This document shows positions 33,410-49,006 of a DNA stretch of 49,006 nucleotides, one piece after another (position 1 is the stretch's first letter; the number at the start of each line of letters is the position of its first letter). The notes beneath the pieces were generated by a model. That model had not been told where the DNA came from. It did not search any database and saw only the letters and a list, made by a program, of their open reading frames with translations. Origin of the DNA: Sulfuricurvum sp. (GTDB lineage: Bacteria > Campylobacterota > Campylobacteria > Campylobacterales > Sulfurimonadaceae); contig QKCD01000080.1 in NCBI GenBank assembly GCA_003245815.1, positions 1-49,006 of the forward strand. Reading direction: 5' to 3'. A program made the position numbers and the translations under genes.

Positions 33410-34402
33410 ATGAAGCAGGGATTTGTGCATCTCTTCGAACATATCGAACTCCTCGAAGCCGCACAGCAGCAGATTCTTGAACGCTGGATGGAACGCAGTG
33501 ACGTTCGCAGCGCGTTGCGGCGCAACGGGATCGGCCCGGAGTTTTTCGGCAGACATTTCGGCAGCCGCGTGATTGCCTATGCCCTCGGCGTTGTAACGGG
33601 CGAACAGCGGCTGGGAAACTGCCCGGTCATCAGCGTAATGCTGGCGATTTTCCGGGAGAAGGAGATCCCGCTGGCGGATCTCTTTGTCGTCTGCGTCCAG
33701 CTGAAAAACACCTTCCTCGATTTCGCCCTGGAGCAGGGGATACTCACCCGGGAGGTTCTCGAGGAGATCGCAGCGCTGCTCGACCACAACTTCGAGGGGG
33801 TGATCAAGGAGTACCTCAATCCGACCGATATCCCGCTGACCTGTTCCATCGTCTGGGAGAAGCCGACCCCGCAACCTGCTTCTTCCGCCGCTCAGACGCC
33901 GAGTATCGCGACACCCCGCAGTGCCTCCCCAGAGACCACCGCCGTCACCTCGGCGGCCGAGTATGCACGGGAGGTGGAAATGGACATGGAGATGATTGAT
34001 GAGCTGATCGAACTTGAACACGAGGCGATCGGCCACCTTGAACTTTTCGAGGACCTTGGGGGACGGACGAAGGAGCACGTCGTCACTCTCTTCCTCCAGT
34101 ACGCCCGTATCCTCAATATGATGCTGGAGTTCCAGCAGCTCGCCTTCGCGCTGAACATGCTGCGCGAACTGCTCGAAAAGACGGAAATCGAGAGTCTCGA
34201 AGCCTCCAACCGGAGCGGGATCGTCATCTATGTCAAGGCGATCATCGACGATCTCAGCCACTGGCGCAACGCGGTTTTCATCGAGAAGAGCGCCGATGAT
34301 ATCCACTACCTGGACAAGACCCTGCTCAGCAGTATCGCGCAGCTGGAGATCATGCTGCTGCCCAATGAAGGGGAAGATGATGATGCGATCGAGTTTTTCT
34401 GA
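33410..34402 (+). CDS. hypothetical signalling protein: N-terminal domain shared with the downstream kinase, C-terminal helical domain, terminal DDDAIEFF peptide
   Basis: N-terminal ~130 aa visually alignable with residues 1-130 of the 34456 product; first gene of the locus. Confidence 0.75.
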   Translation: MKQGFVHLFEHIELLEAAQQQILERWMERSDVRSALRRNGIGPEFFGRHFGSRVIAYALGVVTGEQRLGNCPVISVMLAIFREKEIPLADLFVVCVQLKNTFLDFALEQGILTREVLEEIAALLDHNFEGVIKEYLNPTDIPLTCSIVWEKPTPQPASSAAQTPSIATPRSASPETTAVTSAAEYAREVEMDMEMIDELIELEHEAIGHLELFEDLGGRTKEHVVTLFLQYARILNMMLEFQQLAFALNMLRELLEKTEIESLEASNRSGIVIYVKAIIDDLSHWRNAVFIEKSADDIHYLDKTLLSSIAQLEIMLLPNEGEDDDAIEFF

Positions 34403-34455
34403 TTTGATACGTGCCGGGAAGATGCGCTGCGGCGTCCCCCGCTAAGGAGGCTCCC

Positions 34456-36303
34456 GTGCCGGGCCGCCACGAGCGCATCGCCTCTTTCGACACGGCGTTG
34501 CAACAGGTGCGCGAGCGCTGTCTAGAGGCCTGGACGGCAGATGCGGACATGGCTGCGATCTTTGCCAAATACGGGATGGAGGCCGACTATTTCGCCCGCC
34601 ACTACGCCGCACCCGCCTTCGACGGTTTTGCCGCGTCGGACCCGTCGGCAGAGGGGGAGAGCGTGTCGCGGATGAGCGACTACTTCCGGAACCGGGACAT
34701 GGGGCTGGAGGATATGCACCTGCTATACGGGGCTTTCAGACGGAGTGTGATGGCGTCGCTGCTTCAAAACGGCGGAGGGGACGCGGCACTGCCGGAGGAG
34801 GCGCTCCGGCGTCTCGACGGGCAGTTCGCGGCGCTGTTGCAGTACTACAACCGGGCTCTCTTTCAGCACGAAGATGCGGTCCGGGAGGACCTGCAGCGCT
34901 TCCGGGAGTACCAGAAGGTGATCGATCAGAGTGCTATCGTCTCCAAGACGGACCGGGCGGGCCGGATCACCTATGCCAACAAGGCATTCCGGGAGGTTTC
35001 GGGCTACAGCGAAGCGGAGCTGCTCGGACACCCCCACAGCATGATCCGCCACCCCGATATGGAGGCCGCCTTCTTCAGGGAGCTCTGGGATACGATCCGG
35101 GCGAAAAAGATCTTCCGCGGCATCATCAAAAACCGCAAGAAAAACGGCGACGCCTACTACGTCGACACGACGGTCGTACCCATCCTCGATACCGACAACG
35201 AGATCGTCGAATACATCGCGATGCGCCATGAAATCACCGAACTGGTCGATGCCCTCGAGGCGGCCAAGGCCGCCGAGAAGGCGAAAGATGCGTTTCTCTC
35301 CAACATCTCCCACGAGATCCGCACCCCGCTCAACGCGATCATGGGCTTTGTCGCCATCCTGCAGAAACGGGCGGCAGACGAGACGTCGCGCCACTACCTC
35401 AATATCATTGCCAGCAGCGGCCGGACGCTGATCCGCATCATTAGTGACATCCTCGATTTCTCGAAGATCCGCAGCGGGAAGTTCGGCATCCACCCGCACC
35501 CCTGCAACCCCGTCGAAGAGCTGAGCGCCACCGTGCAGCTCTTCGCCTCCTCTGCCTACGAGAAGCGGCTGGGGTACTACACCTATATCGATCCGCACCT
35601 GCCCGAGAGCCTCGAGATCGACAGCGTGCGCGTCCGGCAGATCGTCGCGAACCTGCTGAGCAACGCCATCAAGTTCTCCGCCGAAGGGGGAAGCGTCAAG
35701 TTCAAGGCGGTCTACGAAGGGGGGGTATTCGCGATCTCCGTGCAGGACCGTGGTATCGGCATTGCACCGGAGAAACAGGATGCCGTCTTCAACGCCTTCG
35801 AACAGGCCGACGGGTCGATCACGCGCCATTACGGCGGAACCGGCCTGGGACTGGCCATCTCTTCGCAGCTGGCATCGCTGATGGGGGGAACGCTGGGGTT
35901 CAAGAGTATTCCGGGAAAAGGGTCGGTCTTCACCCTGAAAATCCCGGCTCCGGCCCGTATGCAGAGCACCGGAAACGGCGTCGCCGGGCCGGATGCCGAA
36001 GTGACGGTGGTGGGCGAAGAGGGCAAAGAGCCGTTGGTCGATCTGGCGGTGCGTTACCTGAAAGCGTTCGGGATGCGGCGGGTCCGCTACGTCCGGGAGC
36101 TCCCCGCCGAAGAGACGGGGAACGTGCTCTGCAGCGCGGCGTCGCCCCTGCTCAACGCGCTGCGACAGCGGAAGGGGAGGCTGATCGTGCTGCTTGAAGC
36201 CCCTTCGCAGGACTTCGACGACGCGCCCGGCGTCCATCTCCTCACCAGTCCCATCCTTCCCGGTGACGTGCTCCGCATGCTGGAGACGCTTTCGCTCCCA
36301 TAG
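34456..36303 (+). CDS. soluble PAS-histidine kinase with novel N-terminal domain and degenerate receiver-like C-terminus
   Basis: PAS (RITYANKAFREVSGYSEAELLGHPHSMIRHPDM), HisKA FLSNISHEIRTPLNAIMGF, HATPase (NLLSNAIKFSAEGG, GTGLGLAIS); RBS AAGGAGG before GTG 34456. Confidence 0.9.
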   Translation: MPGRHERIASFDTALQQVRERCLEAWTADADMAAIFAKYGMEADYFARHYAAPAFDGFAASDPSAEGESVSRMSDYFRNRDMGLEDMHLLYGAFRRSVMASLLQNGGGDAALPEEALRRLDGQFAALLQYYNRALFQHEDAVREDLQRFREYQKVIDQSAIVSKTDRAGRITYANKAFREVSGYSEAELLGHPHSMIRHPDMEAAFFRELWDTIRAKKIFRGIIKNRKKNGDAYYVDTTVVPILDTDNEIVEYIAMRHEITELVDALEAAKAAEKAKDAFLSNISHEIRTPLNAIMGFVAILQKRAADETSRHYLNIIASSGRTLIRIISDILDFSKIRSGKFGIHPHPCNPVEELSATVQLFASSAYEKRLGYYTYIDPHLPESLEIDSVRVRQIVANLLSNAIKFSAEGGSVKFKAVYEGGVFAISVQDRGIGIAPEKQDAVFNAFEQADGSITRHYGGTGLGLAISSQLASLMGGTLGFKSIPGKGSVFTLKIPAPARMQSTGNGVAGPDAEVTVVGEEGKEPLVDLAVRYLKAFGMRRVRYVRELPAEETGNVLCSAASPLLNALRQRKGRLIVLLEAPSQDFDDAPGVHLLTSPILPGDVLRMLETLSLP

Positions 36304-48253: not shown

Positions 48254-48256
48254 CGC

Positions 48257-49006
48257 ATGAACAAGATTATGATCGTCGACGACAACCCGAACAACCGGAT
48301 GCTGCTGCGGGTGATGCTTGAGGAGTATGCCCGGGAGACCCCCGGCTGCGAACTGGAACTCGCCGAGGCCTTCAACGGCAGCGAAGCCGTCGGACTCGCC
48401 GCGTCGGAACCCTTCGACCTGATTTTCATGGACATCATGATGCCGGAGATGGACGGCATCGAGGCGACGCGGCGGATCCGGGCACAGGACGGCAACGTGA
48501 TGATCGTCGCCGTCTCCGCCGTCGACGACGCTGCCCGTCAGAAGGAGATCCTGCAAAACGGGGCGGAGGACTATATCCCCAAGCCGGTCAACGCGGACAT
48601 CTTCCGTAGCCGGATCGGCAACTACCTGGCTCTGGTGGCTTCCCGCACCCACCCGAGGCACTACGGGGAGTCGGTCAATCTCTACACCCCCGAGGTCTTC
48701 AGCCGCCAGCTCGTCTTCCGGATCGGCAGCGAGGACGAGCTGGCAGAGTTCTGGGAGTACTATCTCCTGGGGCACGAGCACCGGAGCGAAAGCCTCAGCG
48801 ATGCGGTGCGGACCCTCTGCGCCATCGGCGATATCGCCCTCAAGCTGGAGCTGACCGTGCGTATCGTCGTAGAGGAGTCGGACACACGTTTTTTCTTCAC
48901 GATGACGGAGATCGGCGGGGTCGATGCCAAACTGATCCGCTTGGCCCTGGCGAAGAATCCGACGGTCACCGACTACCGTACCGAGGCGGAGAAGATCACC
49001 TTCGCG
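48257..49006 (+). CDS. response regulator with unknown C-terminal domain, truncated by the window edge
   Basis: MNKIMIVDDNPNNRMLLRVMLEEYA ... LIFMDIMMPEMDGIEATRRIR ... DYIPKPVNADIF; open to 49006, so absent from ORF track. Confidence 0.9.
   Translation, partial: MNKIMIVDDNPNNRMLLRVMLEEYARETPGCELELAEAFNGSEAVGLAASEPFDLIFMDIMMPEMDGIEATRRIRAQDGNVMIVAVSAVDDAARQKEILQNGAEDYIPKPVNADIFRSRIGNYLALVASRTHPRHYGESVNLYTPEVFSRQLVFRIGSEDELAEFWEYYLLGHEHRSESLSDAVRTLCAIGDIALKLELTVRIVVEESDTRFFFTMTEIGGVDAKLIRLALAKNPTVTDYRTEAEKITFA

Follow-up and report, generated by a model that had tools for sequence, protein, structure and literature searches.

Gene content of the chemosensory locus

The stretch of DNA analyzed here, hereafter the window, comprises 49,006 nucleotides of Sulfuricurvum sp. 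(NCBI GenBank assembly GCA_003245815.1, contig QKCD01000080.1) and is the whole of contig C34 of a 2.15-Mb genome bin that is 81% complete. Positions 33410-49006 of the window hold 16 genes, all on the + strand, which by their sequences are a complete, conserved chemosensory system of class F9. The genes were identified from open reading frame (ORF) translations and Pfam matches, the latter comprising MCPsignal (two stretches), CheW (x3), CheB, HEAT_2, CheR, Response_reg, the CheA domains, AAA_31/ParA and a weak STAS_2. The initial annotation had listed at least 16 co-directional chemosensory genes with PAS, HEAT, STAS and ParA members, and all of them are present where it placed them.

The conserved core begins with a PAS-only protein (36457..36885; Pfam PAS_3) and a receptor with a basic N-terminus (36895..38781). 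These are followed by a protein of three tandem CheW domains (CheW3; 38784..40160, three PF01584 stretches), a putative baseplate component, the methylesterase CheB with its receiver domain (40157..41203), a HEAT-repeat protein (41213..41839) and the methyltransferase CheR (41843..42640). Next come CheY1 (42651..43025), a mini-CheZ-like protein (43036..43416), CheY2 (43425..43790) and the kinase CheA (43803..46487), which has Hpt, dimerisation, HATPase and CheW-like domains and a long linker. A second CheW (46484..47260), matched by Pfam in two halves split by an insertion, a STAS-like protein (47257..47532; STAS_2 E=1e-4, under the curated cut-off), a ParA-type ATPase (47510..48253) and a response regulator cut by the contig end (48257..49006) complete the row. 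The pairs CheW3/cheB, cheA/cheW, cheW/STAS and STAS/parA overlap. The start of the second cheY was placed at 43425, and a long ORF start at 43266 was set aside.

The first two of the 16 genes lie upstream of the core and are lineage-specific, being found in the same position only in two Sulfuricurvum loci (L055 and L070). One encodes an orphan two-domain protein of 330 aa (33410..34402) with no match in Pfam or NCBIfam, and the other a PAS histidine kinase (34411..36303; Pfam PAS, HisKA and HATPase_c) with a C-terminus outside Pfam. The two share their N-terminal domain (BLASTP E=4e-7), which belongs to no Pfam family, and the C-terminal domain of the orphan protein is related to the C-terminus of the terminal regulator (BLASTP E=1e-5). 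NCBIfam likewise holds no name for the mini-CheZ or the STAS-like protein.

Assignment to class F9

Class F9 is defined by the receptor DosM together with CheW3 (Mo et al. 2022, PMC9321776). In Vibrio cholerae DosM is a rod that links two CheA/CheW layers into a membrane-free array (PMC7534058). Both defining proteins are encoded in the window. The receptor carries two MCP signalling hairpins in tandem, with tips at residues 165 and 465, which identifies it as a DosM, and CheW3 consists of three concatenated CheW domains. The receptor had initially been described as soluble; this stands, as no clear transmembrane segment is present in the window sequences of DosM or its partner proteins, and its identity is now refined to the two-hairpin DosM. 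The lack of such segments is consistent with a two-layered cytoplasmic array in this organism as well.

The CheA phylogeny agrees with this assignment. In a maximum-likelihood tree of F9 CheAs from Campylobacterota and from alpha- and betaproteobacterial plasmids, together with 12 non-F9 CheAs of the window's order, the F9 sequences form one group (support 100/99) with the window CheA inside, and the 12 others from its own order fall outside. The program flagged long branches, and the internal branching order was not relied on. The proposal that the locus represents an atypical, undescribed class has consequently to be abandoned: F9 is known from V. cholerae cluster I and is already on record in Campylobacterota (PMC9239204, PMC9321776). 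Similarly to the window, the V. cholerae cluster (DosM VC1403, CheW3 VC1402, CheA VC1397) has cytoplasmic components, a DosM with two signalling domains, a triple CheW, CheB, CheR, two CheYs and CheA. To this set the window adds the Aer-type PAS protein, the mini-CheZ, a CheW with a CZB-derived domain (CheW-CZB), ParA and a regulator with an RsbW-like domain.

Conserved gene order in Campylobacterota

The HEAT protein was found in 30 genomes out of 150, counting that of the window, and scanning named genomes yielded 310 confirmed relatives. Synteny counts rest on the best 80 of these 310, all of which belong to Campylobacterota, mostly to Sulfuricurvum, Sulfurimonas and other Sulfurimonadaceae. 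In these approximately 80 loci the order PAS-DosM-CheW3-CheB-HEAT-CheR-CheY-CheZ-CheY-CheA-CheW-STAS-ParA-(histidine kinase)-response regulator is nearly invariant. Adjacency was complete for PAS-DosM (69/69), DosM-CheW3 (72/72), CheW3-CheB (76/76), CheB-HEAT (76/76), HEAT-CheR (79/79), CheZ-CheY (66/66) and CheY-CheA (69/69), and nearly so for CheR-CheY (74/75) and CheY-CheZ (69/72). Among the 67 loci that extend past cheA, several of them truncated, the STAS-like gene is found in 63, parA in 61 and the response regulator in 55. Since the identical order recurs in some 80 loci, the arrangement is far beyond chance, and it is not unique to the window.

Downstream flanks differ from one locus to another, the lineage of the window having VWA/BatD/MoxR genes next, and a search for an effector in conserved flanks yielded none. 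In most loci (L020-L044), and also in some other classes, the DosM and HEAT proteins both start with MAL[VI]K[KR]. This common start is possibly a docking peptide, or merely a translation-start preference.

F9 loci outside the phylum

In six annotated F9 loci carried by plasmids of Alpha- and Betaproteobacteria the order is DosM-CheW3-CheB-(HEAT)-CheR-(CheY)-CheA, directly followed by a "hypothetical protein" of 78-87 aa. The HEAT gene is found in five of the six and ParA in two. The "hypothetical protein" directly after cheA is STAS-like in all six: all three that were tested give a weak STAS_2 match, and H48 and Q53 are invariant in a cross-phylum alignment of 19 STAS-like sequences that includes the window. 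Because they occur in plasmid F9 loci of other classes, the HEAT and STAS-like proteins can be regarded as F9 accessories beyond Campylobacterota. The plasmid loci of Methylobacterium currus and Methylosinus trichosporium share with the window the series DosM-CheW3-CheB-HEAT-CheR-CheY-CheA-STAS-ParA in the same order, but have no mini-CheZ, no second CheY before CheA, no CheW-CZB and no PAS gene before DosM. Mo et al. (PMC9239204) had already drawn a STAS gene in chemosensory clusters of Campylobacterota. In the literature neither HEAT nor ParA was found described as belonging to F9, nor was an account of HEAT/STAS accessory genes of chemosensory systems found; subscription journals may contain a description of either kind.

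Signal input

The best match of the PAS-only protein in the PDB is the PAS domain of the Escherichia coli aerotaxis receptor (8dik, E=6e-31, residues 22-141 of 142), and the protein is probably an FAD-binding redox sensor of the Aer/CetB type. PAS-only proteins serving the receptor Tlp9/CetA of Campylobacter jejuni are a precedent (PMC9665402). As in Aer and CetA-CetB energy taxis, a PAS-only protein is here paired with a receptor devoid of a sensor domain. Unlike in CetA-CetB, its partner is the cytoplasmic DosM and not a membrane receptor.

A second input is suggested by the CheW located after CheA. The insertion reported earlier for this protein is real, and comparison with relatives now identifies it as a CZB domain (PF13682, E=2e-11 and 8e-11). 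Its zinc site (H, C, H, H) is present in 46 of the 53 long CheW copies. In the window the corresponding positions are L84, R107, A134 and Q138, so that all four zinc ligands, and with them the 3His/1Cys signature, are gone. In many relatives this place is taken by a plain 144-aa CheW. Partial or total loss of the ligands was also seen in six further copies (L056, L070, L090, L101, L107 and L132). Both zinc and HOCl elicit a response of CZB domains (PMC8262984). Given this response and the HCHH site of the relatives, a zinc or oxidant input through CheW-CZB is probably real in the relatives and lost in the window genome. CheW-CZB proteins make up 1.4% of CZB proteins and are commonest in Clostridia, and a link to F9 was not made when they were described (PMC8262984). 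Like the locus relatives, the proteins of that study are fusions of CheW and CZB that have the 3His/1Cys site, unlike the window copy with its lost ligands.

Positioning

The ParA-type protein has the deviant Walker A motif (KGGSAKTT) and fold of the ParA family (AAA_31 E=1e-28), and its nearest solved structure is Soj of Thermus (1wcv, E=6e-24). The N-terminus of DosM is basic (KRRQRTLAKQQ) and conserved among homologues. In Rhodobacter sphaeroides the ParA-type protein PpfA positions a cytoplasmic chemosensory cluster over the nucleoid and is contacted by the N-terminus of TlpT (PMC10924463, PMC5706961). Positioning ATPases of the ParA/PpfA kind bind the nucleoid, and their ATPase activity is stimulated by the N-terminus of the cargo. 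By this precedent, the N-terminus of DosM may be the partner of ParA. Similarly to the window, the R. sphaeroides operon CheOp3 encodes a cytoplasmic receptor and a ParA-type protein with its che genes. It differs from the window in having two atypical CheAs and a CheY6 that binds the motor, and no DosM/CheW3 has been described in it. A cytoplasmic array with ParA is preferred because clear transmembrane segments are absent, F9 arrays have DosM as their scaffold, and ParA occurs in 61/67 loci that extend past cheA. The ParA-positioned cytoplasmic array of the initial annotation is thus still the best reading, as a plausible rather than a proven one.

Output proteins

Canonical CheY docks to FliM through W58, K91, K119 and Y106 (PMC9321776). 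In the alignments, W58 and K119 are absent from all 74 CheY1 and all 73 CheY2 sequences, and position 106 is W or F in most of them (W in CheY1 and F in CheY2 of the window). The phosphorylation residues of both window CheYs are kept, one ambiguous base aside. As every CheY homologue is devoid of W58 and K119, an output other than canonical flagellar taxis is favored, in line with what had been suggested at the outset.

CheZ phosphatases have a catalytic D-x-x-x-Q on a long helix and a C-terminal peptide that binds CheY. The mini-CheZ-like protein has no Pfam match, but the helix motif QD-x-x-x-Q (QDIVSQ in the window) is found in all its homologues listed. Its tail reads IEFF, and the tails of its homologues end in FF in 66 cases out of 67. 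The orphan protein also ends in IEFF (tail DDDAIEFF), with xMEFF, xMDFF or xIEFF in homologues (L055, L105 and L123), and the terminal regulator has the tail DDIFDF in 45/45 homologues. Across the whole genome [IVM]EFF-stop was matched three times (a fourth match was not a stop), and the two matches in convincing genes are the mini-CheZ and the orphan protein. The tail of E. coli CheZ serves as a model for the binding of a tail to CheY. We propose that the acidic-aromatic tails of the locus bind a CheY.

The terminal regulator could be completed from contig C90 (G000:C90, L142, 6727-7410, reverse complement), which shares an exact overlap of 144 nt with the window end, provides the sequence past position 49006 and runs on into VWA/BatD/MoxR/DUF58 genes. 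The complete protein has 429 aa. AlphaFold2 modeling of a relative's regulator gave a receiver domain (REC), an alpha/beta domain and a helical bundle. As a full-length Foldseek search was dominated by receiver domains, a second search was made without REC. The best match of the middle domain was then RsbW (probability ~1.0, E 0.05), and the end matched CheA-P1/HPt lower in the list (probability near 1, E>0.01). The output domain, initially unrecognised, thus resembles an RsbW-like domain followed by an HPt-like helical bundle.

Surroundings of the locus and flagellar genes of the genome

The genes flanking the 16-gene locus in the window have other functions. Close to it a diguanylate cyclase is encoded (29953-31353, - strand), in which a 4HB_MCP_1 domain, an MCP-type four-helix sensory domain, is combined with GGDEF. 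Further away are a GGDEF-EAL protein (13872-15788) and a probably secreted subtilase with two PKD domains and one fn3 domain (8084-11026, - strand). Scanning the window for Rfam families and tRNAs gave no match.

The window ORFs that were scanned include no flagellar or pilus gene. This earlier observation is true but misleading, because the genome is flagellated: it encodes FliG, FliM and PilT. An unflagellated host of the Sulfurovum type was therefore rejected. A type IV pilus output was also rejected, as PilT-family matches occur in all 150 genomes and do not discriminate. A candidate F3 cheVAW cluster on contig C29 proved to be a solitary cheV (G000:C29 900-1850, L003) beside an unrelated gene. 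An F3 cheA was not found in this assembly, which at 81% completeness means little.

Proposed function and alternative explanations

From these data we infer the following scheme. The rod-shaped DosM, which has a signalling tip at either end, would build a two-layered, membrane-free array together with the triple CheW. DosM lacks a sensory domain, and a redox or energy signal would enter via the adjoining Aer-type PAS protein, as CetB feeds CetA. In most relatives a second input may enter through the CheW with its zinc- or oxidant-sensing CZB domain, the zinc site of which is lost in the window genome. CheR and CheB would adapt the DosM receptor. ParA on the nucleoid, acting via the basic N-terminus of DosM, would space the array and hand it to both daughter cells, like PpfA-TlpT, and the HEAT and STAS-like proteins, as standard F9 accessories, are probably structural or regulatory. 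CheA would phosphorylate two CheYs, neither of which is expected to dock on FliM as canonical CheY does. Dephosphorylation would fall to the CheZ-like protein, its IEFF tail holding it on a CheY, and output likely branches at the terminal regulator, which has an RsbW-like and an HPt-like domain. The best reading is accordingly a ParA-partitioned cytoplasmic F9 array that reads the internal redox state and has an output other than canonical FliM binding. To the explanation as a whole, i.e., a complete class-F9 system in a configuration specific to Campylobacterota with the proposed scheme of sensing, positioning and output, we assign a probability of roughly 0.7 (0.72).

Several observations weigh against this explanation. 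The loci of Campylobacterota are known from their genes, and the array structure from V. cholerae F9. FAD binding by the PAS protein rests on its similarity to Aer, and sensing of oxidants or zinc through CZB cannot operate in the window genome. F9 loci in which ParA is not adjacent show the same conserved basic N-terminus of DosM, so that it is not necessarily bound by ParA. For the terminal regulator, the likeness to RsbW and HPt comes with Foldseek E-values above 0.01, and neither the phospho-acceptor serine of STAS nor the ATP-binding glycines of RsbW are evident. Finally, all HEAT-positive relatives have FliG, and an indirect link to the flagellum is possible.

The last point is the basis of the alternative that survives best. 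The F9 system could act on the flagellum non-canonically, as a motor brake, through a CheO-like adaptor or by competition with the CheY of an F3 system, and so, in the manner of R. sphaeroides CheOp3, adjust swimming to the redox state inside the cell. FliG was present in 29/29 other HEAT-positive genomes, whereas 16 of the 150 genomes were devoid of it, or 24 when weak matches are counted as absent (p=0.026 or 0.003, respectively, uncorrected for phylogeny). Moreover, 97% of F9 species are flagellated (PMC9321776), and the cytoplasmic cluster of R. sphaeroides controls a motor CheY (PMC10924463). However, neither CheY of the window has W58 or K119, no flagellar gene lies near the locus, the flanks are variable, and deletion of the V. 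cholerae F9 cheA had no detectable phenotype under standard conditions (PMC7534058). We consider this flagellar route a serious but minority possibility.

A switch of gene expression or stress response, in which phosphorylation of the terminal regulator alters binding between the RsbW-like and STAS-like partners and so releases or holds a downstream partner, appears rather unlikely. HsbR/HsbA and RsbW/RsbV are precedents for partner switching by proteins of the STAS and RsbW types. As in those modules, a STAS-like protein and a regulator of RsbW fold share one operon here, and STAS is conserved throughout the F9 loci examined. The likeness is structural only, as the catalytic and phospho-acceptor residues are not evident: an invariant histidine stands in STAS where the phospho-acceptor serine would be, and, while RsbW-type anti-sigma kinases have a GHKL fold with ATP-binding boxes, no glycine box can be recognised by eye in the RsbW-like domain. 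For this reason classical partner switching is not supported. In addition, none of the six plasmid F9 loci, all of which have the STAS-like gene, was seen to carry the terminal regulator.

It is improbable that ParA and the CheW with an insertion form a pole-anchoring pair of the Vibrio ParC/ParP type. The ParA-type gene is indeed near a modified CheW, and ParP also has a CheW-like domain (PMC5706961). ParP, however, consists of an N-terminal ParC-binding domain and a C-terminal CheW-like AIF domain, whereas the window CheW is split mid-domain and has no N-terminal extension, and many loci with the plain 144-aa CheW keep ParA. That the lost zinc ligands and the contig break mark a decaying locus no longer under selection is most improbable of all, since the remaining genes are intact and their phosphorylation residues conserved, the terminal regulator is complete across the break, and the six other copies with CZB ligand loss lie in otherwise complete loci.

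The ParA-partitioned array can be extended tentatively to a more general scheme, which we regard as a good deal less probable than the explanation as a whole: PAS and CheW-CZB would be interchangeable inputs, output would pass by a non-motor route through the CheYs and the REC-RsbW-HPt regulator, several partners would be recruited by a shared acidic-aromatic C-terminal tail, and core parts of F9 arrays that are near-universal and previously unrecognised would include the HEAT and STAS-like proteins.

Implications for F9 chemosensory systems

Several features are apparently new: the accessory kit of Campylobacterota F9 as a unit, the occurrence of CheW-CZB in F9 and the loss of its zinc ligands in the window genome, the tails common to several proteins, and the domain architecture found for the terminal regulator. 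The structure of the F9 array is known from V. cholerae, and the kit bears on its inputs, positioning and output. Fixed in approximately 80 loci, the kit names candidate sensors (the Aer-type PAS protein and CheW-CZB), a candidate positioning factor (ParA), a candidate phosphatase and a candidate output regulator. HEAT and STAS-like genes recur in F9 loci beyond the phylum. In the non-pathogenic sulfur oxidisers these are concrete parts that can be tested.

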